DNA of 53,897 bases, from contig JAFVBE010000022.1 in NCBI GenBank assembly GCA_017480195.1, forward strand, positions 1 to 53,897, read 5' to 3'. This document shows positions 23,135-41,072 of the stretch, piece after piece. The first letter of the stretch is position 1. Each line of letters opens with the position of its first letter. The stretch comes from Lachnospiraceae bacterium (GTDB lineage Bacteria; Bacillota; Clostridia; Lachnospirales; Lachnospiraceae). The notes beneath the pieces were generated by a model. It was not told where the DNA came from, did not search any database, and saw only the letters and a list, made by a program, of their open reading frames with translations. The position numbers and the translations under genes were made by a program.

Positions 23135-24088
23135 ATGGACAGCTTAATCTACAGTCTTAACGCGACCATACCGATATTTGCGGTTATGGTTGTGGGATAC
23201 ATATTAAAACAGATAAAATTCCTAAGTGAAGAATTCGTATCGGTTGCGAATAAATTTGTATTCAAGGTATGTCTTCCGTGTATGCTATTCTTAGATGTTT
23301 GGAAGACGGATATACTACACAACTTCGACGGTAAGTACATAGGCTTCTGTGCAGTTGTAACCCTTGTAAGCATAGTGGCGATATGGGTGCTATCAAAGCT
23401 ATTGCTCAAGGATAAGACTGAGGTTGGAGCCTTTGTTCAGTGTGCTTACAGGAGCAGTGCAGCCATACTTGGTATAGCCTTTATACAGAATGTATACGGG
23501 AGTTCGGGTATGGGACCGCTTATGATTATAGGCGCGGTACCGCTTTATAATATATTCGCAGTGATAATCCTTACCTTTGAAAGCAATGATGAAGCAACTA
23601 AAAATGATAAGAGCCGTATAAAACATGCCTTTATCAACATACTTAAAAACCCGATTATAATAGGCATATTCCTCGGACTAATAGCATCACTTATCGGCTT
23701 GAAACTTCCGATAATGCTTGAAAAGCCAATACAGTACTTAGGCGGTATGGCATCACCGCTTGCACTTATTGCGATAGGAGCAGGCTTTGAGGGCAGGAAG
23801 GCACTTGCTAAGATAAAGCCGACACTTGCAGCAACCACTATAAAGCTTATATTGCTTGCGGCAATCTTTATACCGATTGCTGTATATGCAGGCTTCCGCG
23901 ACGAGAAGCTGCTTGCTCTCCTTATAATGCTTGCCTCCCCGAGCACTCCGACAGCATACATCATGGCTAAAAATATGCATGGCGACGATGTTCTTACATC
24001 AAGTGTAATCGTCCTTACGACACTACTTTCAGCATTCACACTCACATTGTGGATATTCGTACTCAGATACTTGGGATATCTAATATAA
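23135..24088 (+). CDS. AEC-family transporter
   Basis: A 317-residue integral membrane protein with about ten hydrophobic segments in two halves, as in the auxin efflux carrier/bile-acid fold. Typical features are the opening ATIPIFAVMVVGYILKQIKF, the half-way ILKNPIIIGIFLGLIASLIG, GGMASPLALIAIGAGF, and the last-third PSTPTAYIMAKNM. Members export or import organic acids such as malate; the substrate here is unknown. It follows the HExxH gene after 15 bp, with a weak ribosome-binding site (AGAGG). Confidence 0.88.
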   Translation: MDSLIYSLNATIPIFAVMVVGYILKQIKFLSEEFVSVANKFVFKVCLPCMLFLDVWKTDILHNFDGKYIGFCAVVTLVSIVAIWVLSKLLLKDKTEVGAFVQCAYRSSAAILGIAFIQNVYGSSGMGPLMIIGAVPLYNIFAVIILTFESNDEATKNDKSRIKHAFINILKNPIIIGIFLGLIASLIGLKLPIMLEKPIQYLGGMASPLALIAIGAGFEGRKALAKIKPTLAATTIKLILLAAIFIPIAVYAGFRDEKLLALLIMLASPSTPTAYIMAKNMHGDDVLTSSVIVLTTLLSAFTLTLWIFVLRYLGYLI

Positions 24089-24165
24089 ATTGATGTTACA
24101 TTAATCATTTTTTATAATAATTATATATTAATATACAAATAATACTCCTTAACAAAAAATTTAGC

Positions 24166-24443
24166 GGTTGGATGTATCAGATATGTCTATAAGCAGGTAA
24201 TATGAGCCGTCGGTAGTTAGTACCGTTGCATGCGAATCTTAGCAGTGCATCCGTTTTCAAATACCTGAATTTTTTACGCAGTATAAATTGTCGCTCAGCA
24301 AGGCGCTCCGAATGAGTCGTAGTTGTACTACGGCGAATGAGGACAACGAAGCTGAAGACAATTTAGACAAGTAACAAAATCCACTTATTTGGAGACGGCT
24401 GCACTATGCGTGCCTGCGATAGACATATCTGATACATCCAACC
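24166..24443 (+). ncRNA. Candidate structured RNA or mobile element, copy 1 (upstream of gpr)
   Basis: A perfect 25-bp outer stem joins 24166-24190 to 24419-24443. Inside are AAGCAGGTAATATGAGCCG, the hairpin CGGTA-GTTAG-TACCG (24211-24225), TGCGAATCTTAG, a long variable arm (about 24243-24408, closed by CCGTTTTCAAATA and TATTTGGAGACGG), and GTGCCTGCG, whose CCTGC pairs with the GCAGG near the 5' side. The core matches copy 2 almost base for base, while the outer stems differ yet stay paired. It ends 25 bp before the gpr start. I do not recognise the class. The remaining DNA from 24089 to 24165 is AT-rich with a weak hairpin (TGAT...ATCA, T-run) that may end the AEC transcript. Confidence 0.55.
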
Positions 24444-24468
24444 TTAAAAGAAAAAAGGAGTATTTTTT

Positions 24469-25509
24469 ATGAAGAGATATATTCGTACGGATTTAGCACT
24501 GGAGTTAAAGGAAGACCTTCCCGAGCAGGGACTGATAGATGGCGTAAAGATATTTACTAAGAATTACAAAGACGAGGATATAAAGGAAACCATAATAGAG
24601 GTTGTAAATAAAAACGGAGAAATGCTACTCGGAAAGCCTGTCGGAACCTATGTAACTATCGAGAGCAAGAGTCTGCGTGAGGGAGACGACAGCATCAATA
24701 AATCCTTTATGCAGATACTTCATCACAATCTTGCCAAGATGATAGGTAAGGCAGATAAGATAATGGTTATAGGGCTTGGGAACAGAGCCATTACTCCCGA
24801 TTCTTTAGGACCGCTTGTGATTGACAACCTTTATATAACGAGACATCTGATAAACGAGGGACTTGTAAAGGAGGATAAGGAGCTGTCGGCGCTTGCACCC
24901 GGAGTTATGGCGCAGACCGGCATAGAGACAAGCGTTATCATAAAATCCGTCTGCGACAAGGTTAAGCCTGATGTAGTGATTGCCATAGATGCGCTCGCAG
25001 CAAGAGAGCCTGACAGACTTAATTCGACGATACAGATATGCGATACCGGTATAAATCCCGGAGCCGGAGTGGGGAACAATCGGGCGAAGCTTGACAAGAA
25101 GACGCTTGGTGTAAAGGTTATTGCGATAGGAGTGCCGACCGTTATATCTGTTCCGGCTATTGTATATCAGTCTGTAGAGGGGATGGTTAATGTATTACGA
25201 GGTGAGGTTGGTAAATCAAGCGAAACAAAGGATAACAAAAAAAATAAATCAAAAGAATATAATGGAAGAAATAACAAAAACAACGACAAAACTAAAGATA
25301 CTGATGAAGAAAAAAACAGAGGTACAGATGATGAAGACAGACTTGACCGATTTACCGATGCTGAAAAGTACGAGATAGCCTGCAATCTGCTTGAGCCGGA
25401 TTTGGCAGCAATGTTCGTGACACCGAAAAATATTGATGAAGCAGTTAAGAGGGTTTCTTATACAATTTCGGAAGCCATAAATGGTTTTTTGAATTATAAA
25501 CGGAATTAA
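24469..25509 (+). CDS. gpr: GPR spore endopeptidase
   Basis: A 346-residue germination protease. It begins with the conserved RTDLALEL segment, from which the mature form is cut in known GPRs, and shows VIGLGNRAITPDSLGPLVID, LAPGVMAQTGIET and AIDALAAREPDRLNSTIQIC, followed by INPGAGVGNNRAKL. GPR degrades alpha/beta-type SASPs during germination; one such SASP is encoded at 37285. Residues about 247-297 are a Lys/Asp/Glu/Asn-rich insertion before the C-terminal FTDAEKYEIACNLLEP. AAAGGAG precedes the ATG. spoIIP follows after 15 bp, as in Bacillus and Clostridia. Expression is expected in the forespore. Confidence 0.95.
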   Translation: MKRYIRTDLALELKEDLPEQGLIDGVKIFTKNYKDEDIKETIIEVVNKNGEMLLGKPVGTYVTIESKSLREGDDSINKSFMQILHHNLAKMIGKADKIMVIGLGNRAITPDSLGPLVIDNLYITRHLINEGLVKEDKELSALAPGVMAQTGIETSVIIKSVCDKVKPDVVIAIDALAAREPDRLNSTIQICDTGINPGAGVGNNRAKLDKKTLGVKVIAIGVPTVISVPAIVYQSVEGMVNVLRGEVGKSSETKDNKKNKSKEYNGRNNKNNDKTKDTDEEKNRGTDDEDRLDRFTDAEKYEIACNLLEPDLAAMFVTPKNIDEAVKRVSYTISEAINGFLNYKRN

Positions 25510-25524
25510 AGCATATATTTTACT

Positions 25525-26790
25525 ATGGAAAAATTAAAAAGCTTTATAGAATATTTATATTGTTTCATAGTAATAGGAATAAGCATGTTCATAATTGTCA
25601 AGTCTTCATTGCTGTCAGAAATTTTGCTAAAAAATTTTCGTGATGAAATGATACCTATGTGTGTCCTAAGCGGTCATAACGGGGACGAGTTTCTGTATGA
25701 GCTGATTCCGATACTAACGCTCAATAATGAGAAATATGATGATGGTTATGACTTATCGTATAATGATTTTGATAATTATGATTACATCAAAGCCAATACT
25801 GATATATTGTCAGATGTAAGTGATGATAGAAGAGGAACTGACACATCTGAAAATGCGTATGGTAATAACGATAGTGTATCTTCCGCATCTGATAATTTAA
25901 CGGATAATTCGAACGAAAATATTACCACAACCACTGAGCAGACTACAGAGGAAAATCCGTATGTTGATGACAGTGATTTGTATGTAACGGCTACGGCAGG
26001 AGTCAATCCGTCAGGGATATATTATACTATGGAGCAGCTTCGTGATTATGAATTCATGCTCGAGAACTGCTATGCTGTAGACAGCTCAACAAGTGTGCTT
26101 CCGGAGGAAATAGACCCGGACACACTTCTTAATATGGATATGAGTATAGACCTGTCGGGAGATGACTACAAGGTGCTTATATATCACACACATGGAAGTG
26201 AGGCATTTGCGGACAGCAGAGAGGGTGTGACTGAGGATACAGTTATAGGCGTGGGCGACGAGCTGACTCGAATACTTGAGGAGGACTACGGAATAAAAAC
26301 CTATCACGACAGAAATGTGTATGATATGGTGGACGGCGTACTTGACAGAAGCTATGCATACACACTGTCGGGTGATGCAGTAGACAGAGTATTGGCAGAG
26401 AATCCGTCGATACAGGTCGTGATAGATTTACATAGAGACGGAGTAAGAGAAGACCTTAAGCTTATGCGTGTAATAGATGGCAGACCGACTGCGCAGATAA
26501 TGTTCTTAAACGGCGTTAGCCGACTTAACCTAAATGGTGATATAGACTACCTGTATAATCCCAATAAGATTGATAACTTAGCATTCAGCTTGCAGATGCA
26601 CCTTGCGGGCAAAGCATTATACGGTGACCTGTTAAGAAGAATATATATAAGAGGCTACAGCTTTAATCTTGAGAAGCTGCCTCGTGCCTCACTCGTCGAA
26701 GTCGGTGCCCAGACCAACACGGTCGAGGAAGCCAAGAATGCAATGATACCTCTCGCTCGTATAATTTACACCGTCCTAAGCCCAAACTGA
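25525..26790 (+). CDS. spoIIP: Stage II sporulation protein P
   Basis: A 421-residue SpoIIP with an N-terminal membrane anchor (about 8-28, FIEYLYCFIVIGISMFIIVK), an acidic Ser/Thr/Asn-rich linker (about 75-150) and the amidase/endopeptidase domain. Active-site motifs are LIYHTHGSEAF (about 213), VVIDLHRDG (about 299) and SLVEVGAQTNTVEEA near the end. SpoIIP works with SpoIID and SpoIIM to thin septal peptidoglycan and drive engulfment. It is the partner of gpr in a conserved two-gene order. It has no strong Shine-Dalgarno sequence, so translation may depend on coupling to gpr. Confidence 0.95.
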   Translation: MEKLKSFIEYLYCFIVIGISMFIIVKSSLLSEILLKNFRDEMIPMCVLSGHNGDEFLYELIPILTLNNEKYDDGYDLSYNDFDNYDYIKANTDILSDVSDDRRGTDTSENAYGNNDSVSSASDNLTDNSNENITTTTEQTTEENPYVDDSDLYVTATAGVNPSGIYYTMEQLRDYEFMLENCYAVDSSTSVLPEEIDPDTLLNMDMSIDLSGDDYKVLIYHTHGSEAFADSREGVTEDTVIGVGDELTRILEEDYGIKTYHDRNVYDMVDGVLDRSYAYTLSGDAVDRVLAENPSIQVVIDLHRDGVREDLKLMRVIDGRPTAQIMFLNGVSRLNLNGDIDYLYNPNKIDNLAFSLQMHLAGKALYGDLLRRIYIRGYSFNLEKLPRASLVEVGAQTNTVEEAKNAMIPLARIIYTVLSPN

Positions 26791-26846
26791 CAATACAACA
26801 ATTACACAAATAATGTTCAATACTTAAACCTTAATCAAAAAATAAA

Positions 26847-26876
26847 TTGCTATACCGCACAGATATGTGCTATACT
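26847..26876 (+). promoter_or_regulatory. Probable promoter upstream of structured element copy 2 and lepA
   Basis: TTGCTA (26847-26852) and TATACT (26871-26876) are 18 bp apart. The spacer holds the inverted repeat GCACA-GATA-TGTGC (26857-26870). Transcription from here would include structured element copy 2 in the lepA 5' leader. Confidence 0.5.
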
Positions 26877-26912
26877 TTTCCTCGGAAAATATATAAGTTA
26901 AAAATTCAGCAA

Positions 26913-27100
26913 GGTTACGTATATCAGATGAAGTCACAAGCAGGTAATATGAGCCGCCGGTAGTTAGTGGATTAAGACTGGAAAACATATAACGAGCGAA
27001 TGCGAGTTAATATGTTTTAACAGGATTAAGACGCTTAGTACCGCTGCGTGCGAATCTTAGTGAGAACGTGCCTGCGGTGACTTTATCTGATTATGTAACC
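26913..27100 (+). ncRNA. Candidate structured RNA or mobile element, copy 2 (upstream of lepA)
   Basis: The outer stem joins 26913-26937 (GGTTACGTATATCAGATGAA, then GTCAC) to 27077-27100 with two G-U pairs and one bulge. The core AAGCAGGTAATATGAGCCG, CGGTAGTTAGT, ACCGCTGCGTGCGAATCTTA and GTGCCTGCG matches copy 1. The variable arm of copy 1 is replaced by a few bases (TGAGAAC). Instead, 66 bp are inserted in the hairpin loop (26969-27034), flanked by TTAGT on both sides. The element ends 38 bp before lepA and fills most of the 348-bp gap after spoIIP. Confidence 0.55.
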
Positions 27101-27138
27101 TTATAGTAGTATATAGCTTATTTTAGTGAGGAAAAGAC

Positions 27139-28953
27139 ATGGCACATTTAGACCAAAGCTTAATCAGGAATTTTTGCATAATAGCACATATCGACCACGG
27201 TAAATCAACTCTTGCCGACAGAATAATAGAAAAGACAGGCACCCTTACCAGCCGCGAGATGCAGGAGCAGGTGCTTGATAATATGGATCTTGAGCGTGAG
27301 CGTGGCATTACAATAAAGGCACAGTCGGTGCGTATTATATATAAGGCGAATGACGGTAAGGAATACATCTTTAATCTGATAGATACTCCGGGACATGTGG
27401 ATTTTAATTATGAGGTATCAAGAAGTCTGGCTGCATGCGAGGGAGCCGTACTTGTAGTTGATGCGGCGCAGGGCATAGAGGCACAGACCCTTGCGAATGT
27501 ATATCTTGCAGTGGACCATAACCTTGATGTGATGCCGGTTATCAATAAGATTGACCTCCCATCAGCAGATCCGGAGAGAGTCAAGAACGAGATAGAGGAT
27601 GTAATAGGTATAGAGGCACAGGACGCACCTCTTATCTCTGCAAAGAACGGAATAAATATAGAAGAGGTATTAGAGCAGATAGTTACCAAAATACCTTGTC
27701 CGAACGGTGATGTAGATGCGCCGTTTAAGGCACTTATATTCGACAGTCTATATGATTCCTATAAGGGAGTTATAATATTCTGCCGGGTATTTGACGGCGT
27801 GTGTGCGAAGGGAACAAGGATAAAAATGCTGGCGACAGGAGCAGAGGCAGAGGTCGTGCAGGTAGGAATATTCGGTGCAGGACAGTTCATACCTTGTGAT
27901 GAGCTCAGCGCGGGAATGGTTGGATATATAACCGCAAGTCTTAAGAATGTCAAGGATACAACAGTCGGTGATACAGTAACCGATGCCGACAACCCTTGTG
28001 CAGAGGCGCTTCCGGGATATAAAAAGGCTAATCCGATGGTATACTGCGGACTATATCCGGCAGATGGTGCTAAATATCCTGATTTAAGAGATGCCTTGGA
28101 GAAGCTTCAGTTAAATGATGCGTCACTAAGCTATGAGCCTGAAACCTCGATAGCACTTGGCTTCGGATTTAGATGCGGATTCTTAGGACTGTTACATCTT
28201 GAGATAATACAGGAGCGGCTTGAGAGAGAATATAACCTTGATCTTGTGACGACGGCACCGGGCGTAGTATACAGAGTGCATAAGACTGACGGCGAGGTTA
28301 TAGAACTCACCAATCCGTCTAATCTTCCTGACCCATCTGTTATAGATTATATGGAGGAGCCTTTCGTATCAGCGGAGATAATGGTTACTACAGATTATGT
28401 AGGTGCGATAATGCAGCTATGTCAGGAGAGGCGTGGTGTCTATAAAAGTATGGAATATATGGAGACAACTCGTGCTCTGCTAAAGTATGATTTACCGTTA
28501 AATGAGATAATATATGATTTCTTCGATGCCTTAAAATCAAGGTCGAGGGGCTATGCATCATTTGATTATGAATTCAAGGGCTATGTCAGGTCAGACCTTG
28601 TCAAGCTGGATATACTTATAAATAAAGAAGAGGTGGACGCACTTTCGTTCATACTTCACAAGGATACGGCTTATGAGCGGGGCAGAAAAATGTGTGATAA
28701 GCTTAAGGAAGAGATACCAAGACACTTATTCGAGATTCCTATACAGGCGGCTATCGGAAGCAAGGTAATCGCAAGAGAGACTGTCAAGGCTATGCGTAAG
28801 GATGTATTGGCAAAATGCTACGGCGGCGACATAACCAGAAAACGAAAATTGTTAGAAAAACAAAAAGAGGGCAAGAAGAGGATGCGTCAGGTGGGAAATG
28901 TAGAGATACCACAGAAGGCATTTATGAGTGTTCTTAAATTAGATGAGGAGTAG
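27139..28953 (+). CDS. lepA: Elongation factor 4 (LepA)
   Basis: A 604-residue translational GTPase of normal length. G-motifs are [13 protein letters not shown] (G1), ERERGITIK (G2), DTPGHVDF (G3) and [11 protein letters not shown] (G4). The LepA-specific C-terminal domain is present ([40 protein letters not shown]). EF4 binds ribosomes and affects elongation or back-translocation and ribosome biogenesis under stress. It is followed after 8 bp by hemW, the same order as in Bacillus. A GAGGAAAAG site precedes the ATG. Confidence 0.98.
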
Positions 28954-30826: not shown

Positions 30827-31055
30827 TAAAAATATTCATTTTTTCATAGAATTCTCCGATATAATAAATGAAATAATATGCTCAGAAAAATAAAATACAA
30901 AATAAACTTAAAAAATTACAAAAAATACTATATTTTGTAGATTTTACATAAAAAAGTATTTTATTTTCTGAGAATATGTGTTATACTGTAAAATATTATG
31001 GACATATTATGGCATACGAGACTTTAAAATTAATATAAATTATCGAGGTGGAAAG

Positions 31056-34000
31056 ATGAATATTAAGGACAAATTAATCAGAAAGCTGCTTGATGTCGGT
31101 AAAAAGCATAGGATATTGGTTTATCCTACGCTTATTCTTGTTGCTATTATCAGTGCAATCTCTCATGCTGTATATTGGGGTAGAGGCAATGGAAAGAGAC
31201 TTGTTGCGTCAGTTTCTATAGTTGCGCTCTTGATTACACAATCACTGTTTCTCACTTCATCAGCGTTAGATGATAGTGAAGAACCGAATATAAGCACGGA
31301 GGAAAGTACTGAAGCAAGCATAGAAGAAAGCACTGAAGAGGTAGTTGATACTTCTGATGTGACGGATAATGAAGTTGCTGATGCTGAGGCTGCAGAGTCA
31401 GACGATTCCGTGAATGACGATTCTGATGATACAGATACCGAAGCTGTAACAGAAGCAGATGGCGATGCCACAACGGAAGGTGATATAGCTGATAATGTCC
31501 TTGATGCCTCATCTGAAGAAGAAACCACAGAAACCTTAACTGATAATGTTCTTAATCAAAACCTTGATACTCTTGATAATAATAATTTAAGTGCTGTTGC
31601 AATGGCTGCATTAAATGGTATAGATACGACAGAGTTGGATTTAGTTGGTGCAACAGGTGCTTATTCTGCCAATTATATTGTTGTATATAAAAACAATGCA
31701 ACTGATTATAATGATACTGTTGCCGGCCAGGTCTCAAATGATGATGGCGAAATTACCTCACTTGACATATCTGCTGTAAGAGCAGACTGGAGCAATGGTG
31801 GAGATGCAGGTATTGAAGTAACAGGACCATATACGGATAGTTCATGTACAACCGAAGCTGATATATCAAGTAAAAATCCGGAAGATTGGAACGCAGAGTC
31901 TGACGGTTCGACAATAAATATATATTATAAGGCTATGCGAAAAAGCTATAATGTAAGTATAATAAGTGGTAATGAAACAAAGAATGTAACAGTAACCTTA
32001 GCTGAACCGTCAAATGATATTTCTGCTGCGGCCTCTATGACTGTTGGAAGTGCAACTGATTATGAATTTACAAAATTCGCTTATGATTATCAGGGACTTA
32101 ATTTAGGTGAAACCTTTTATGAAGAAGGAAAAACTATTGATATAACAGGTAATGTTGAATTTACTGCTCAATGGTCACCACAGACCTTCAAGATTTCCTG
32201 TGATGTTAATCCTGATGGTACATATGTTGTTTTAACAGGGGATAATCAGACTATTGATGTTGGTTGTACATATGATGCAACAGTAACACTTCCGGATGCT
32301 GATGCTGTAAGTGCGCTGGCAACAAGTAAGGGCTACAAGCTTAGCCACTGGACAGACGGTACAAATGAATATGCACCCGGAGCAACTCTTACGGTTGAGC
32401 AGGTTAATTCACTTGCCAAAACTGAATCCGGAGATAACTTAGCTGATTATGGTACACCACTCACAGCAGTATGGATATATAAGGATGTTAATATTACTCT
32501 ATCCGGAACAGGTGCAACAATTGATAACGAATATAAAACCGTAACAGCCGAGTATGGTGATACGATTTCAATAAATATAGATACAGTATATTTAGGTGCT
32601 GCATCAAATGAGGATAATTTTACATATACCATAACTGCCGGAGAAGGTGCAATTAATGACCTTGGACTTAGCATAACTCAGACTACAAACGGAGGTAAAC
32701 AGACAGGCTTCGTGGTGTCGGGTCAGCTTACTGATATAAGTGATGTTGATAATGTCAAAGGAGTCATATTAACCATTCAGATAGCTGATGAAAATCAGAA
32801 GGAGAACGAGACACCGGAATCAAGAAGTGTCACATTTTATTCGAAGAAAAAGGAAGTAACCTTAGATAATACTACAGTTAAGGATGGGGCAGGAAAAGAC
32901 TTGTCTAAAACCTATGATGGTGATAGTAAAATTACCACTTCCGGTAAATGTAGTATTGATTCTCCGGTTGTGATTAAGGGGGCAACAGATGATGTTTATG
33001 CTACCTTTAATCAGGTTGCCGATCTTGATGATGCTAATGCCGGTACAAATAAAGGTGCAACCTTATATAATGTAAGTCTTGTCGGAGCTAAAGCGGATAA
33101 ATATATACTTACAGATGTTGACACAAGCGGTAATGCTCATGTGGATAATGTCGCTGAGGTCGAAAGAGTATTAATTCCGGTAGAGATTAAGAAGGTTGAT
33201 GAGAGTGCGTCTGATACAGTTCTCTTCGGAGAAGAAAGACCTCAGTATACTTTGGTTATATCTAATCCTGACAAATTATCATCGTATTCTGCTTCGGATT
33301 CGGTTAAGAGTGACAGGGAATATTATTATAGCATTGCAAATGATGATACGGCGCGTATGAGCTTTATAGAAAGCAAGCTTGGATTTACAGGCTGGGATTG
33401 TGCAAGAACGATATACAGTCCGGTTAATACGAACCCCGGTTATACTATAAAGCCTGTATTTAGCTCTGCAGGCACGAACTATGCAGTAGAAGCACCAAGT
33501 ACAGTATTTTATGTAGACCGTGAAGAAGGAGAAGGCTATTACAAGCTTAGCAAGCAGCCTGTCAACGGTGTATATCCGGGACTTACAATATCTCCTGACA
33601 ATGGATATGATAAAATAAGAGTTGTAGAAGGTGGAGATATAACAGAGTCTATGAGTAAAAGTGCGGCTGAGGCTTTGTTCTCCAACTATGTAACGATAGA
33701 TAACGGTGAGAATCAGACAATAGTTCTGCAGATGCTTAATTCATCAACCGGAGCTATTACCAAGACAGTTACGCTTAATAATATAAATGTCGATGGAAAT
33801 GGACCTGTGTTGCAGAGCTTTACTGTTACACCAAATACCGATTATTTTAACGAGACGGATTTCGGCGCTTACTATCATACACAGACTATAGGCGGTTCCG
33901 CAGTAGAGAGCGTAAGCATTAAATTTATATATAAATCGGTCGGAGGAAGCGCTTGTGATACTCTTTATTACACATTTACCGATGATAAAAATAATGTGCT

Positions 34001-37000
34001 TACTTCAGGAACAGCGAATATGACTAAGGATGACGCAACAGGCAACTACGAAGCGACTGTAAATATTGGTACATCTACATATGGTAAGCTTAAGGTTTAT
34101 GCAACTAATATAGCCGGTAAAACATCTGATGAAAGCTATATTAAGTTAAATGAGGACCTGTTCTCAATGTCTGATTATTATGAATGGATGGTAGAGAACA
34201 GTATAACCGGCTCAGATATAATCGTTACGGATTCAGATGGTAATCCTGCGGCAGAAGGAATCTGGTATAACAGTCTGTCCTATAGTACGACTGCTACGGA
34301 TAATCAGAGTGGATTACAGTATATAATCTGGAATATTACAGACAGTACAGGAGCTGTAAATCCTACTAAGGAGAATGCCGGATACGACCTTACAAATATA
34401 AACTCAGCCACAGATTATAAAAAGATAACAGGATATACTTTCTCAGGTATACTTAATTCGGAGAATATTCCTGCAGGAGAATATAATATTTCAGCGGTAT
34501 TATATGATAATGCGAACAATAGTATAGAATTAGAGAATGCAGGTCCGTATCTTCTTGATTGTATTAAGCCTGCAATAGAGGATAATACAAGCTACTCAGC
34601 AAGTGGATTTGATAATTCAATAGACTTTACATTTACGGCTACAGAGGGCGCGAATGAAAGTGGTATATCATCAGTTAAACTCTATTTTGGTGAGGGCGAG
34701 AACAGAAAAGAGCTTAAGAGCTGGGGCGCAGAGTCAAGCTATACCTATGAGATAACAGAGAATGGTTTATATACTATAGAAGCGACAGATAAGGCGGGAA
34801 ATGTTAATACTTACACAAAGGAAATAACTAATCTCTCTACTGAGGTACCTGCTACTCCTGAAATTAGTGTAGACGGAACTAAGGGTAACGGAAAGTGGTA
34901 TATATCAGAGAGCCCTAAGATAACAATCAAATCACAGCGCGAAACTGCTGATGGAGTTCCTGTAACTACATATTATAACATTATAAATAACTCAGTAGTG
35001 TCTGAAAAAACTGTTACCAGTACAAGTGGAGAATTTAGCTTTGATTTGGCAGAGCGAGGCGAGGTTACAATAGTAGCCTGGAGCGTAAGCTTTTCCGGTG
35101 TGACAAGCGATGAAGCAGAAGTTACATTATTTGTTGATACCAAGAAGCCATCCTTAGAGATTACAGAATCCACTGTTGATGACAATGGAAATATAGTCAT
35201 TAATTTCAAGTCTAAAGATGATATAAGCGGAGTTAATACATCTAAGGTGCTTGTAAATGGCAGTCCTGTAACTGTAACAGATAATGATGGAGTTATAACA
35301 GGAAGCTTCTCGACGGCATCTGCTGAAAACTTCACTATAGTGTCTGAGGATGTTGCAGGAAATGTATCAGATACCATAGACTTTGTACCTATGAGACTTT
35401 CAGTAAATCCGGTAATGGATATACAGGAGACTTCAGCAAATCTTAGTGCTGATATATACAAGGGAACCTATGACATAGATGAATGTTACATACAGTATAA
35501 GAAGTCAACAGACAGTTCATATGATACCTGCCTGTCTAATAAATACGATACATCATATGGTAAGAGTATGGAGTACAACTTTACTAACCTTACTCCGAAT
35601 ACCAAATATGATTATAAGGTATATGCATCGACTAAGACTTCTAAGGAAGTAAAGACCTATGAGGGAAGCTTCAAGACCAGCAGCAGAGAAGCTACAGGTG
35701 TTGTATACGGCTCTGCAAAATATGCAGGAACTCTTGCTGATGATTTGAAGAATTATCCTATATATGTATCCTTGTATGATGGCAATACCTATATTAAGTC
35801 AGTAGGACTTAGCAGTGGTGATGAAGAATTCAAATTCTCAGATATATCGGATGGAACCTACAGAGTAGTAGCTTCAGATGGTTTCCTTACCAAAGAGACA
35901 TCTGTAACTCTTGAGAAAGGTGGAATTGTTTATCCGACAACCTATGCATCCGATGGAGGAATTAATCTTGTCCTTGATGGATTAAGTACGGAGGTTGTCC
36001 TTGAGGATAATGCAGTTGCACTTACTGTAGATGGATTGGATAAGATATACAACACTGCATTATACAATGGTAATGTAAGTGAGGCTGACCTTGCTGTAGT
36101 AGCCAATGGTGGTACGATTAAGATTACTCTTTATGCAAGCTATATGGATGTAAGCAGTATAAGTGATACAACAGAGACGATATTTGAGGATAGACTTGGT
36201 AATACAGCAGTTATTGAAAGATATATCGACCTTGAGATTGTTAAGGAAGTAAGAAATGCAAATGGTGAATTGGTAAATGATACACCTAAGAATATCACAA
36301 GACTTGCCGAGCCTGTTACAGTATCCTTCCCACTTGGAAGTCTCTCGGGTGAGAATATACATGTTGCTTCACTTCATGGTTCAGATACGGATTACTCGTT
36401 TAAGTCCTGGGTAAACGGTTCAGAGGCAGTATTAAGCACGAATTATGTAACCATTACGACTGACAGATTCTCAGTATATGCACTTTACAGATATGTGGAA
36501 AGTGATATAACATATACGGTAAAATGGCTTGACGGAGACGGAAATATAATGAAGACGGAGACGGTGAAGAGCGGTACTGCGGCTACTCCTCCTACAAAGA
36601 CTCCGACGAAGACAGCTACTGCCAAGTATACATATACCTTTGAGGGATGGGATACGGATTATTCGGCTATTACAGGAGATACGATTATTTCAGCGTGGTT
36701 TACAGCTAAGAAGATAAATGAAGATCCGACTACTGAAGATCCGGGTAATAATGATAAGCCGACTACCGAGGCGCCGGGTAATAATGATAAGCCGACTACT
36801 GAAGCACCGGGTAATAACGGTAATTCAGGCAATAACGGTAATGGTGGCAATTCAGGAAACACCGGCAATAACGGAAATCCGGGCAATACCGGTAACACAG
36901 GTAATACCGGAAATACTGCTCCGACGGCAACAGTTACACCTGGCAATTCTACAAGCACACCATCAGGGGCTAATGATATCTCAACTGAACCTGTAAGATA

Positions 37001-37133
37001 TACTTATATGGGTTCTGCAGGTTCACCAAAGACTGGTGATGCAACGCCTATAGCAGTAGCTATGCTTGTTATGATTTCATCATCATTTGGAATTTTAATC
37101 TTAAGAAAAAAGGCTAAAAATGAGCAAAAATAA
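31056..37133 (+). CDS. Giant sortase-anchored multidomain surface protein
   Basis: A 2025-residue cell-wall protein. The N-terminus has two hydrophobic stretches (about 20-40 and 48-68); the second ends in LFLTSSALDD and is the likely signal-peptide core, leaving an unusual long cytosolic leader. Then come an acidic Thr/Ser/Glu linker (70-175), InlB/Flg_new-type beta repeats (VEFTAQWSP near 370; YTFEGWDTDY near 1865), Ig-like modules (TATDNQSGLQYIIWNITDS, TATEGANESGISSVKLYFGE), a fibronectin-like module (FTNLTPNTKYDYKVYAST), and a Pro/Gly/Asn stalk (DKPTTEAPGNN repeats). The C-terminus has SPKTGD (about 1990), a membrane helix and RKKAKNEQK, a sortase sorting signal with SPKTG replacing LPxTG. 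A role in adhesion or matrix formation is inferred. GAGGTGG precedes ATG 31056. Confidence 0.9.
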   Translation: MNIKDKLIRKLLDVGKKHRILVYPTLILVAIISAISHAVYWGRGNGKRLVASVSIVALLITQSLFLTSSALDDSEEPNISTEESTEASIEESTEEVVDTSDVTDNEVADAEAAESDDSVNDDSDDTDTEAVTEADGDATTEGDIADNVLDASSEEETTETLTDNVLNQNLDTLDNNNLSAVAMAALNGIDTTELDLVGATGAYSANYIVVYKNNATDYNDTVAGQVSNDDGEITSLDISAVRADWSNGGDAGIEVTGPYTDSSCTTEADISSKNPEDWNAESDGSTINIYYKAMRKSYNVSIISGNETKNVTVTLAEPSNDISAAASMTVGSATDYEFTKFAYDYQGLNLGETFYEEGKTIDITGNVEFTAQWSPQTFKISCDVNPDGTYVVLTGDNQTIDVGCTYDATVTLPDADAVSALATSKGYKLSHWTDGTNEYAPGATLTVEQVNSLAKTESGDNLADYGTPLTAVWIYKDVNITLSGTGATIDNEYKTVTAEYGDTISINIDTVYLGAASNEDNFTYTITAGEGAINDLGLSITQTTNGGKQTGFVVSGQLTDISDVDNVKGVILTIQIADENQKENETPESRSVTFYSKKKEVTLDNTTVKDGAGKDLSKTYDGDSKITTSGKCSIDSPVVIKGATDDVYATFNQVADLDDANAGTNKGATLYNVSLVGAKADKYILTDVDTSGNAHVDNVAEVERVLIPVEIKKVDESASDTVLFGEERPQYTLVISNPDKLSSYSASDSVKSDREYYYSIANDDTARMSFIESKLGFTGWDCARTIYSPVNTNPGYTIKPVFSSAGTNYAVEAPSTVFYVDREEGEGYYKLSKQPVNGVYPGLTISPDNGYDKIRVVEGGDITESMSKSAAEALFSNYVTIDNGENQTIVLQMLNSSTGAITKTVTLNNINVDGNGPVLQSFTVTPNTDYFNETDFGAYYHTQTIGGSAVESVSIKFIYKSVGGSACDTLYYTFTDDKNNVLTSGTANMTKDDATGNYEATVNIGTSTYGKLKVYATNIAGKTSDESYIKLNEDLFSMSDYYEWMVENSITGSDIIVTDSDGNPAAEGIWYNSLSYSTTATDNQSGLQYIIWNITDSTGAVNPTKENAGYDLTNINSATDYKKITGYTFSGILNSENIPAGEYNISAVLYDNANNSIELENAGPYLLDCIKPAIEDNTSYSASGFDNSIDFTFTATEGANESGISSVKLYFGEGENRKELKSWGAESSYTYEITENGLYTIEATDKAGNVNTYTKEITNLSTEVPATPEISVDGTKGNGKWYISESPKITIKSQRETADGVPVTTYYNIINNSVVSEKTVTSTSGEFSFDLAERGEVTIVAWSVSFSGVTSDEAEVTLFVDTKKPSLEITESTVDDNGNIVINFKSKDDISGVNTSKVLVNGSPVTVTDNDGVITGSFSTASAENFTIVSEDVAGNVSDTIDFVPMRLSVNPVMDIQETSANLSADIYKGTYDIDECYIQYKKSTDSSYDTCLSNKYDTSYGKSMEYNFTNLTPNTKYDYKVYASTKTSKEVKTYEGSFKTSSREATGVVYGSAKYAGTLADDLKNYPIYVSLYDGNTYIKSVGLSSGDEEFKFSDISDGTYRVVASDGFLTKETSVTLEKGGIVYPTTYASDGGINLVLDGLSTEVVLEDNAVALTVDGLDKIYNTALYNGNVSEADLAVVANGGTIKITLYASYMDVSSISDTTETIFEDRLGNTAVIERYIDLEIVKEVRNANGELVNDTPKNITRLAEPVTVSFPLGSLSGENIHVASLHGSDTDYSFKSWVNGSEAVLSTNYVTITTDRFSVYALYRYVESDITYTVKWLDGDGNIMKTETVKSGTAATPPTKTPTKTATAKYTYTFEGWDTDYSAITGDTIISAWFTAKKINEDPTTEDPGNNDKPTTEAPGNNDKPTTEAPGNNGNSGNNGNGGNSGNTGNNGNPGNTGNTGNTGNTAPTATVTPGNSTSTPSGANDISTEPVRYTYMGSAGSPKTGDATPIAVAMLVMISSSFGILILRKKAKNEQK

Positions 37134-40930: not shown

Positions 40931-40977
40931 ACATTATAAAATATTATTATATAGTATGTAATAGCACACTAAGGGCG

Positions 40978-41027
40978 AATATAAGCAGGTGTCTGCTTGC
41001 GAGTTGCAGCAGACACCTGCTTATATT
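40978..41027. repeat. Perfect 20-bp-arm hairpin between clpX and engB
   Basis: The arms 40978-40997 (AATATAAGCAGGTGTCTGCT) and 41008-41027 are exact reverse complements with the loop TGCGAGTTGC. Pairing continues imperfectly outward (CACTAAGGGC with GGCCTTAAGTG). No T-run follows either arm, so it is not a standard terminator. It could be a small insertion or an RNA processing or stability element. Confidence 0.7.
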
Positions 41028-41072
41028 TGGCCTTAAGTGCGTTGTGTATATGTTTACAGAGAGGATAAGAAT

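Follow-up and report, generated by a model that had tools for sequence, protein, structure and literature searches.

The 53,897-nt contig JAFVBE010000022.1 of a Lachnospiraceae bacterium (assembly GCA_017480195.1; this whole stretch is hereafter called the window) carries two copies of a structured element, one just upstream of gpr and the other just upstream of lepA. Sequence comparison indicates that they probably belong to a Lachnospiraceae-wide family of non-autonomous DNA elements that resemble miniature inverted-repeat transposable elements (MITEs) and are built around a conserved structured core, which is itself probably an RNA; in the genus of the window these elements would be borne in leaders. 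The element reaches dozens of copies per genome, is apparently undescribed and combines mobility as DNA with a covarying fold capped by GNRA, in a family that is among the commonest of gut bacteria.

From the outside inwards, the element consists of an outer stem roughly 25 bp long, a helix P2 (GCAGG/CCTGC) and a three-way junction carrying a side hairpin, P4 (AGC-GNRA-GCG), and an arm, P3. The P3 arm is bulged by two bases, its strands are conserved and CUUAG-like, and its loop is either minimal or occupied by one of several modules. An outer shell with terminal inverted repeats is an optional part. The features of the two window copies are as follows.

24166..24443, + strand: copy 1, in the gpr leader
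24166..24190, + strand: 5' arm of the copy 1 outer stem (25 bp, perfect)
24419..24443, + strand: 3' arm of the copy 1 outer stem
24193..24197, + strand: 5' strand of copy 1 P2 (GCAGG), whose partner is 24413-24417
24211..24225, + strand: P3 hairpin of copy 1 (CGGTA...TACCG), in the minimal form without a module
24244..24405, + strand: nested second palindrome of copy 1, in place of the tetraloop of the P4 side hairpin
24142..24464, + strand: hairpin ATACTCCTTA (24142-24151) / AAGGAGTAT (24456-24464), which overlaps the gpr ribosome-binding region and holds copy 1 within its loop
26847..26876, + strand: promoter-like site of lepA, TTGCTA-18-TATACT, kept in relatives whether or not they carry the element
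26911..27102, + strand: copy 2, in the lepA leader
26911..26937, + strand: 5' arm of the copy 2 outer stem (predicted fold)
27077..27102, + strand: 3' arm of the copy 2 outer stem (predicted fold)
26940..26944, + strand: 5' strand of copy 2 P2, whose partner is 27071-27075
26963..27038, + strand: exchangeable module in the P3 loop of copy 2, of the GATTAAGAC...CAGGATTAAGAC type
27059..27068, + strand: P4 side hairpin of copy 2, with a GAGA tetraloop and a closing pair U-A in place of C-G

The first-pass annotation of the window, made by a model from the letters alone, had proposed two copies, at 24166-24443 and 26913-27100, each with a paired outer stem and each ending 25-38 bp before a start codon, and all of this was recovered. 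The 25-bp arms of copy 1 are 100% complementary, the predicted stem of copy 2 contains one bulge and two G-U pairs, and the distances to the ATG are 25 bp for gpr and 38 bp for lepA, the identities of GPR and LepA being confirmed by NCBIfam. The annotation overlooked both the nested palindrome of copy 1, the like of which is found in another copy of the same genome (L016), and the U-A closing pair of the copy 2 tetraloop, which is a compensated change with respect to C-G (alignment columns 86/91). Three blocks are common to copies 1 and 2 (56 nt at 79% identity, 26 nt at 92% and 25 nt at 76%). Both predicted folds are far more stable than shuffled sequences, with z = -12.07 for copy 1 and z = -10.46 for copy 2, and 0 of 200 shuffles equalled either. 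By eye, the leaders of relatives show a hairpin similar to the one at 24142..24464.

The annotation had reckoned with two copies only. The covariance model R1, for which 27 copies from this genome and from G013 (RGIG3763) were used and which therefore leans towards relatives, gives 32 matches in the genome of the window (E <= 0.1), and the pattern GCAGGTAATATGAGCC, allowing at most 2 mismatches, occurs at 27 places in the genome while its reversed control occurs at none. Two pairs among the 32 matches resemble duplicate contigs; after removal of 2 duplicate-contig copies and 1 weak match, 29 copies, hereafter the own copies, were retained. They span 127-288 nt, the choice of P3 module sorting them mainly into two sizes, near 149 and 199 nt, and share with MITEs a small size, a high copy number and a lack of room for a transposase gene. 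Matches were found in 21 of the 25 members of the genus searched; among other families of the same order, 16 genomes searched with R1 gave none. Across Lachnospiraceae, at least 119 of 397 genomes and at least 107 of 334 genera hold matches; these counts are minima because at most 8 candidates were scored per genome. At the gpr, amtB-like and flavoredoxin-like loci of G013 (named by eye except gpr), the same outer stem encloses other modules. In one copy, L027, the core is swapped for a different long palindrome, P2 and some of the outer arm sequence being kept. Look-alike loci on separate contigs of this assembly (L109/L110, L127/L128 and L386/L387; stated contamination 5.47%) suggest redundant contigs.

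The annotation had proposed a covariance model and a covariation test as checks, and both the 27-copy and the 50-copy sets covary strongly. Among the 27 genus copies, in a plain MAFFT alignment, 91.8% of cells pair and both sides change in 28 of 43 pairs; the covariation score of 0.458 was reached by 0 of 500 shuffles, and slid controls scored 0.059-0.122. A second alignment, A2, has 50 rows: 18 come from the genus of the window and the remaining 32 from 23 further genera. All were chosen from strong matches and fitted to the R1 structure, towards which the alignment is therefore biased. There, 95.7% of cells pair, both sides change in 41 of 43 pairs, and the score is 0.866 (slid controls, 0.085-0.144). 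Conserved bases are also found at unpaired positions of A2. The P4 tetraloop is GNRA in 48 of its 50 copies. Within the genus, the loop could be located in 91 of 94 copies looked at, and it is GNRA in 88 of them.

Mobility is apparent first from sites at which relatives lack the element. The comparison at lepA covered 13 of 30 fetched loci, the own one among them, in whose leaders a promoter could be recognised. The distance from the -10 box to the ATG is 34-36 nt in eight empty leaders, 253-262 nt in three that carry the full element and 102-106 nt in two that carry a bare hairpin, and the same promoter is conserved across all three states. The locus thus amounts to a natural experiment: downstream of one promoter stands the full element, only a hairpin, or neither. 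This conservation is also better evidence for the promoter that the annotation had placed upstream of copy 2 than is the count of promoter-like sites there, 2 found against 1.4 expected by chance. At gpr, the element is present in G000, G013, G019, G007 and G024 and absent from G023. Orthologues of the own loci are occupied (R1 >= 60 bits) in 15 of 25 cases in G013, 12 of 22 in G019, 5 of 20 in G007, 2 of 23 in G024, 4 of 21 in G023, 2 of 3 in G022 and 0 of 3 in G015, the orthologues below 60 bits including both partial remnants and clean empties. The idea that the stem arms are copies of the target was dropped, as the empty sites, read by eye with rows L111 to part of L120 omitted, are without arms.

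Further evidence comes from complete shells in other genomes, those of G206, G228 and G134 having clear terminal inverted repeats. G206 holds 12 complete copies with common ends and stems, 263-264 bp between inner repeat ends (273-274 as printed); by eye, a 7-bp target duplication is perfect in 10 of the 12, matches at 6 of 7 positions in one and is missing in one. In G228 and G134, an 11-base repeat was examined at the seven shells with both ends. Five match at 11, 10, 10, 10 and 9 positions, values reached by 0, 1, 0, 3 and 5 of 300 shuffles, respectively; the sixth has 9 matches (17 of 300 shuffles) and the seventh (L471, G228) has no repeat (170 of 300). One further copy, L402, has a repeat of 10 of 11, by eye only. 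The shell ends in G228 and G134 are unlike the G206 ends, which suggests that one and the same core has been carried by different shells. Taken at the level of sequence comparison, these data establish both the structure, a predicted GNRA-capped three-way junction, and the mobility of the element. In the annotation, compensating change had been taken to mean an RNA and not a MITE; this opposition fails because empty sites exist and the arms covary. Its alternative of a cis-acting RNA or an RNA-based mobile element stands as regards mobility and the leader position at lepA but finds no support as regards an RNA-based route, the complete shells looking like DNA transposons. The ksgA copy of this genome has an outer inverted repeat of 21/22 bases, and, as a separate observation, comparison of L127 with L278 shows the element inverted at this locus between this genome and G013, between the outer inverted repeats.

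Could the paired changes have arisen in an ordinary decaying MITE, one arm being corrected from the other at the DNA level during replication? Paired changes are indeed clustered at orthologous loci, tex and L102 being examples by eye. Across six species the ends of the tex stem are similar while the middles differ yet remain complementary. However, in the stems of the genus, G-U exceeds A-C by 94 to 32 (P = 3e-8; 83 distinct copies, in an alignment that scores both alike), an excess for which strand-biased deamination is a possible confounder and which is absent outside the genus; moreover, the core covaries too and, within the genus, is more conserved than the arms. A decaying MITE is therefore quite unlikely. 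Arms and cores were also compared among 80 copies from seven species, in a gapped alignment. Core identity is 0.871 between different loci of one genome, 0.825 at the same locus in two clades and 0.794 between different loci across clades, while stem identity is 0.709 at the same locus across clades versus 0.63 between different loci. Stem sequence thus reflects the locus more strongly, and core sequence reflects the genome somewhat more, which weakly suggests that gene conversion or core replacement partly homogenises cores between loci. A side observation concerns leuB (L292 and L310), where the leader is near-identical in G013 and G019, two genomes that differ at most of their other loci; either a transfer or an error of binning may be responsible.

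Gene context was assigned by a heuristic using open reading frames (ORFs), start codons and Shine-Dalgarno sequences, with 110 nt searched. Of the 29 own copies, 25 lie in sense orientation upstream of a gene start, three are antisense and one is neither, and in 24 of the 25 sense copies the start is at most 56 nt from the end of the model. Other genus members show 15 sense copies, 1 antisense and 8 neither (n=24). In this genus, the element is thus most likely retained or targeted as a leader, as far as position and orientation can tell. Such a bias, together with the conserved unpaired bases, is what would be seen if the element were a true cis-regulatory RNA class of the genus, riboswitch or protein-binding leader, that had merely been duplicated often, and at lepA the order promoter, element, ATG is indeed found on the sense strand. 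This explanation is nonetheless quite improbable, given the empty sites, the MITE shells, an orientation that is not uniform but free in other genera, and downstream genes that are unrelated by eye: besides gpr and lepA, their translations resemble, by eye, purC, leuB, leuC, queC, proA, gltB, tex, amtB, ksgA and mutS2.

Several observations weigh against a MITE-like element with an RNA core that serves as a leader. Outside the genus, orientation is unbiased (8 sense, 9 antisense and 14 neither, n=31), and by eye the downstream genes have no apparent common theme or pathway. A long outer inverted repeat is present in just two of the 27 own copies examined for one, at ksgA and leuC, and is not clear in the other 25; no consistent target duplication was found among the 27, in a search made without a null. 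No transposase with matching ends was found, although draft assemblies weaken this search: 8 ORFs scanned with Pfam at two long-spaced end pairs gave no transposase (4 were without a match), and G206 has no exact +/- end pair spaced 1-2 kb. Homogenisation of the cores shrinks to a small effect in the gapped alignment. Finally, G-U pairs are scarce. The core cells of A2 comprise 8 G-U, 849 Watson-Crick and 23 A-C, predicted folds contain 5-8% G-U as compared with 12.9% in 27 TPP riboswitches, and the stems outside the genus have 27 G-U versus 20 A-C (P = 0.38, 32 copies), so that selection could be acting on a DNA hairpin instead. Two exact-pattern scans of viral contigs gave no match. A 263-aa ORF without a Pfam match, a possible mobility protein, adjoins a shell end in G228 (L467:1118-1909).

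The scarcity of G-U leads to an alternative in which the element is selfish DNA, its recombinase recognising a folded single strand or a cruciform, as with integron attC sites, and the RNA look is a by-product. The sense strand is predicted to be more stable than its complement in 23/23 own copies, 60/60 other copies of the genus and 29/32 copies of other genera, as compared with 20/27 in a TPP control, and this strand-specific stability also suits a single DNA strand. The same alternative would account for the unbiased orientation outside the genus, for the bare hairpins at lepA, for the one same-site inversion, at ksgA, and for core changes that are almost always complete: at columns 69/162 of A2, 26 copies have C-G and 24 have U-A, with no intermediates. 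On the other hand, a conserved GNRA tetraloop is a signature of RNA, and, with GNRA at the frequency given above, the purine at position 3 of the tetraloop is kept in 50/50; the 7- and ~11-bp duplications point to staggered cuts in double-stranded DNA; and the copies of the own genus have a sense bias. A DNA fold recognised in the manner of attC is thus judged unlikely. As to the functional form of the core, I lean towards RNA rather than DNA in view of the strand-specific stability, the conserved GNRA loop and the excess of G-U over A-C in the stems of the genus.

If the elements are MITE-like and their core acts as RNA, their shells would be moved in trans by host transposases. Copies landing in leaders would be transcribed and would fold into a closed structure of 130-290 nt, which would shield or expose the 5' end of the mRNA to RNases such as RNase III or, alternatively, would set the context of the ribosome site; copies acting usefully or harmlessly in leaders would be kept. 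If leaders do act on expression in this way, mobile insertions would be rewriting the 5' ends of housekeeping mRNAs. A bolder proposal, which may be offered tentatively, is that the core is a functional RNA domain, compact, GNRA-docked and probably protein-binding, that occurs in more than 100 genera in shells moved by different transposases and that in this genus has become a general-purpose mRNA leader before dozens of unrelated genes.

The view of the annotation that the element matches no RNA class known to it was upheld. Rfam at gathering thresholds, with HEARO, raiA and group II fragments among the classes covered, gave no match on the element, either in the window or at 20 loci from other genera, where two matches, TwoAYGGAY and ZTP, were the sole ones and lie beside it; at E up to 10 (24000-27200) and up to 5 (one copy), only chance matches fell on the element. 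HEARO, the omega RNA of IscB, is a structured RNA of bacterial mobile elements; cmscan gave no match to it in 24000-27200 at E up to 10, and own copies of 127-288 nt are too short for a HEARO nuclease gene. A limited literature search found no published description of such an element. A link to retrons suggested by a common string, TTAGCGAGAG, was rejected as a chance likeness.

Three groups of elements offer partial likenesses. The Correia/NEMIS elements of Neisseria, which are defined by their inverted repeats, are likewise small and non-coding, lie near genes and have transcripts that are long hairpins. Here, by contrast, the arms vary yet pair, and it is the interior fold that is conserved across genera. 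The BOX/RUP/SPRITE repeats of Streptococcus pneumoniae are modular in build, and a GNRA-capped three-way junction is not known from them. The Correia/NEMIS hairpin transcripts are described as being cut by RNase III (PMC10969869, PMC2229807, PMC2649163), and BOX/RUP/SPRITE as small repeats that are clustered and inserted into one another (PMC10969869). MRSC motifs, such as MRSC-65-2, are described in PMC11109978 as multi-copy, covarying and structured, and are judged there to be mobile and possibly to act as DNA. According to the same paper, MRSC-65-2 forms one long stem that contains UYCCGG repeats, whereas the present core is branched; this distinction holds for MRSC-65-2 alone, and another motif of the list in PMC11109978 could be the same element.

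Elsewhere in the window, a SpoIIP-like gene lies between gpr and lepA (SpoIIP, 117.8 bits, below the cut-off of 123.15). A hairpin with a P2-like string (AAGCAGGTGTCTGC) is found at 40969-41040, just upstream of a GTPase-like ORF; it was considered as a further copy on the strength of a weak R1 match (E = 5e-4) and judged to be a plain hairpin or palindrome. Positions 30978-37133 hold a 2051-aa ORF whose only Pfam match is a sub-threshold one, to a collagen repeat.

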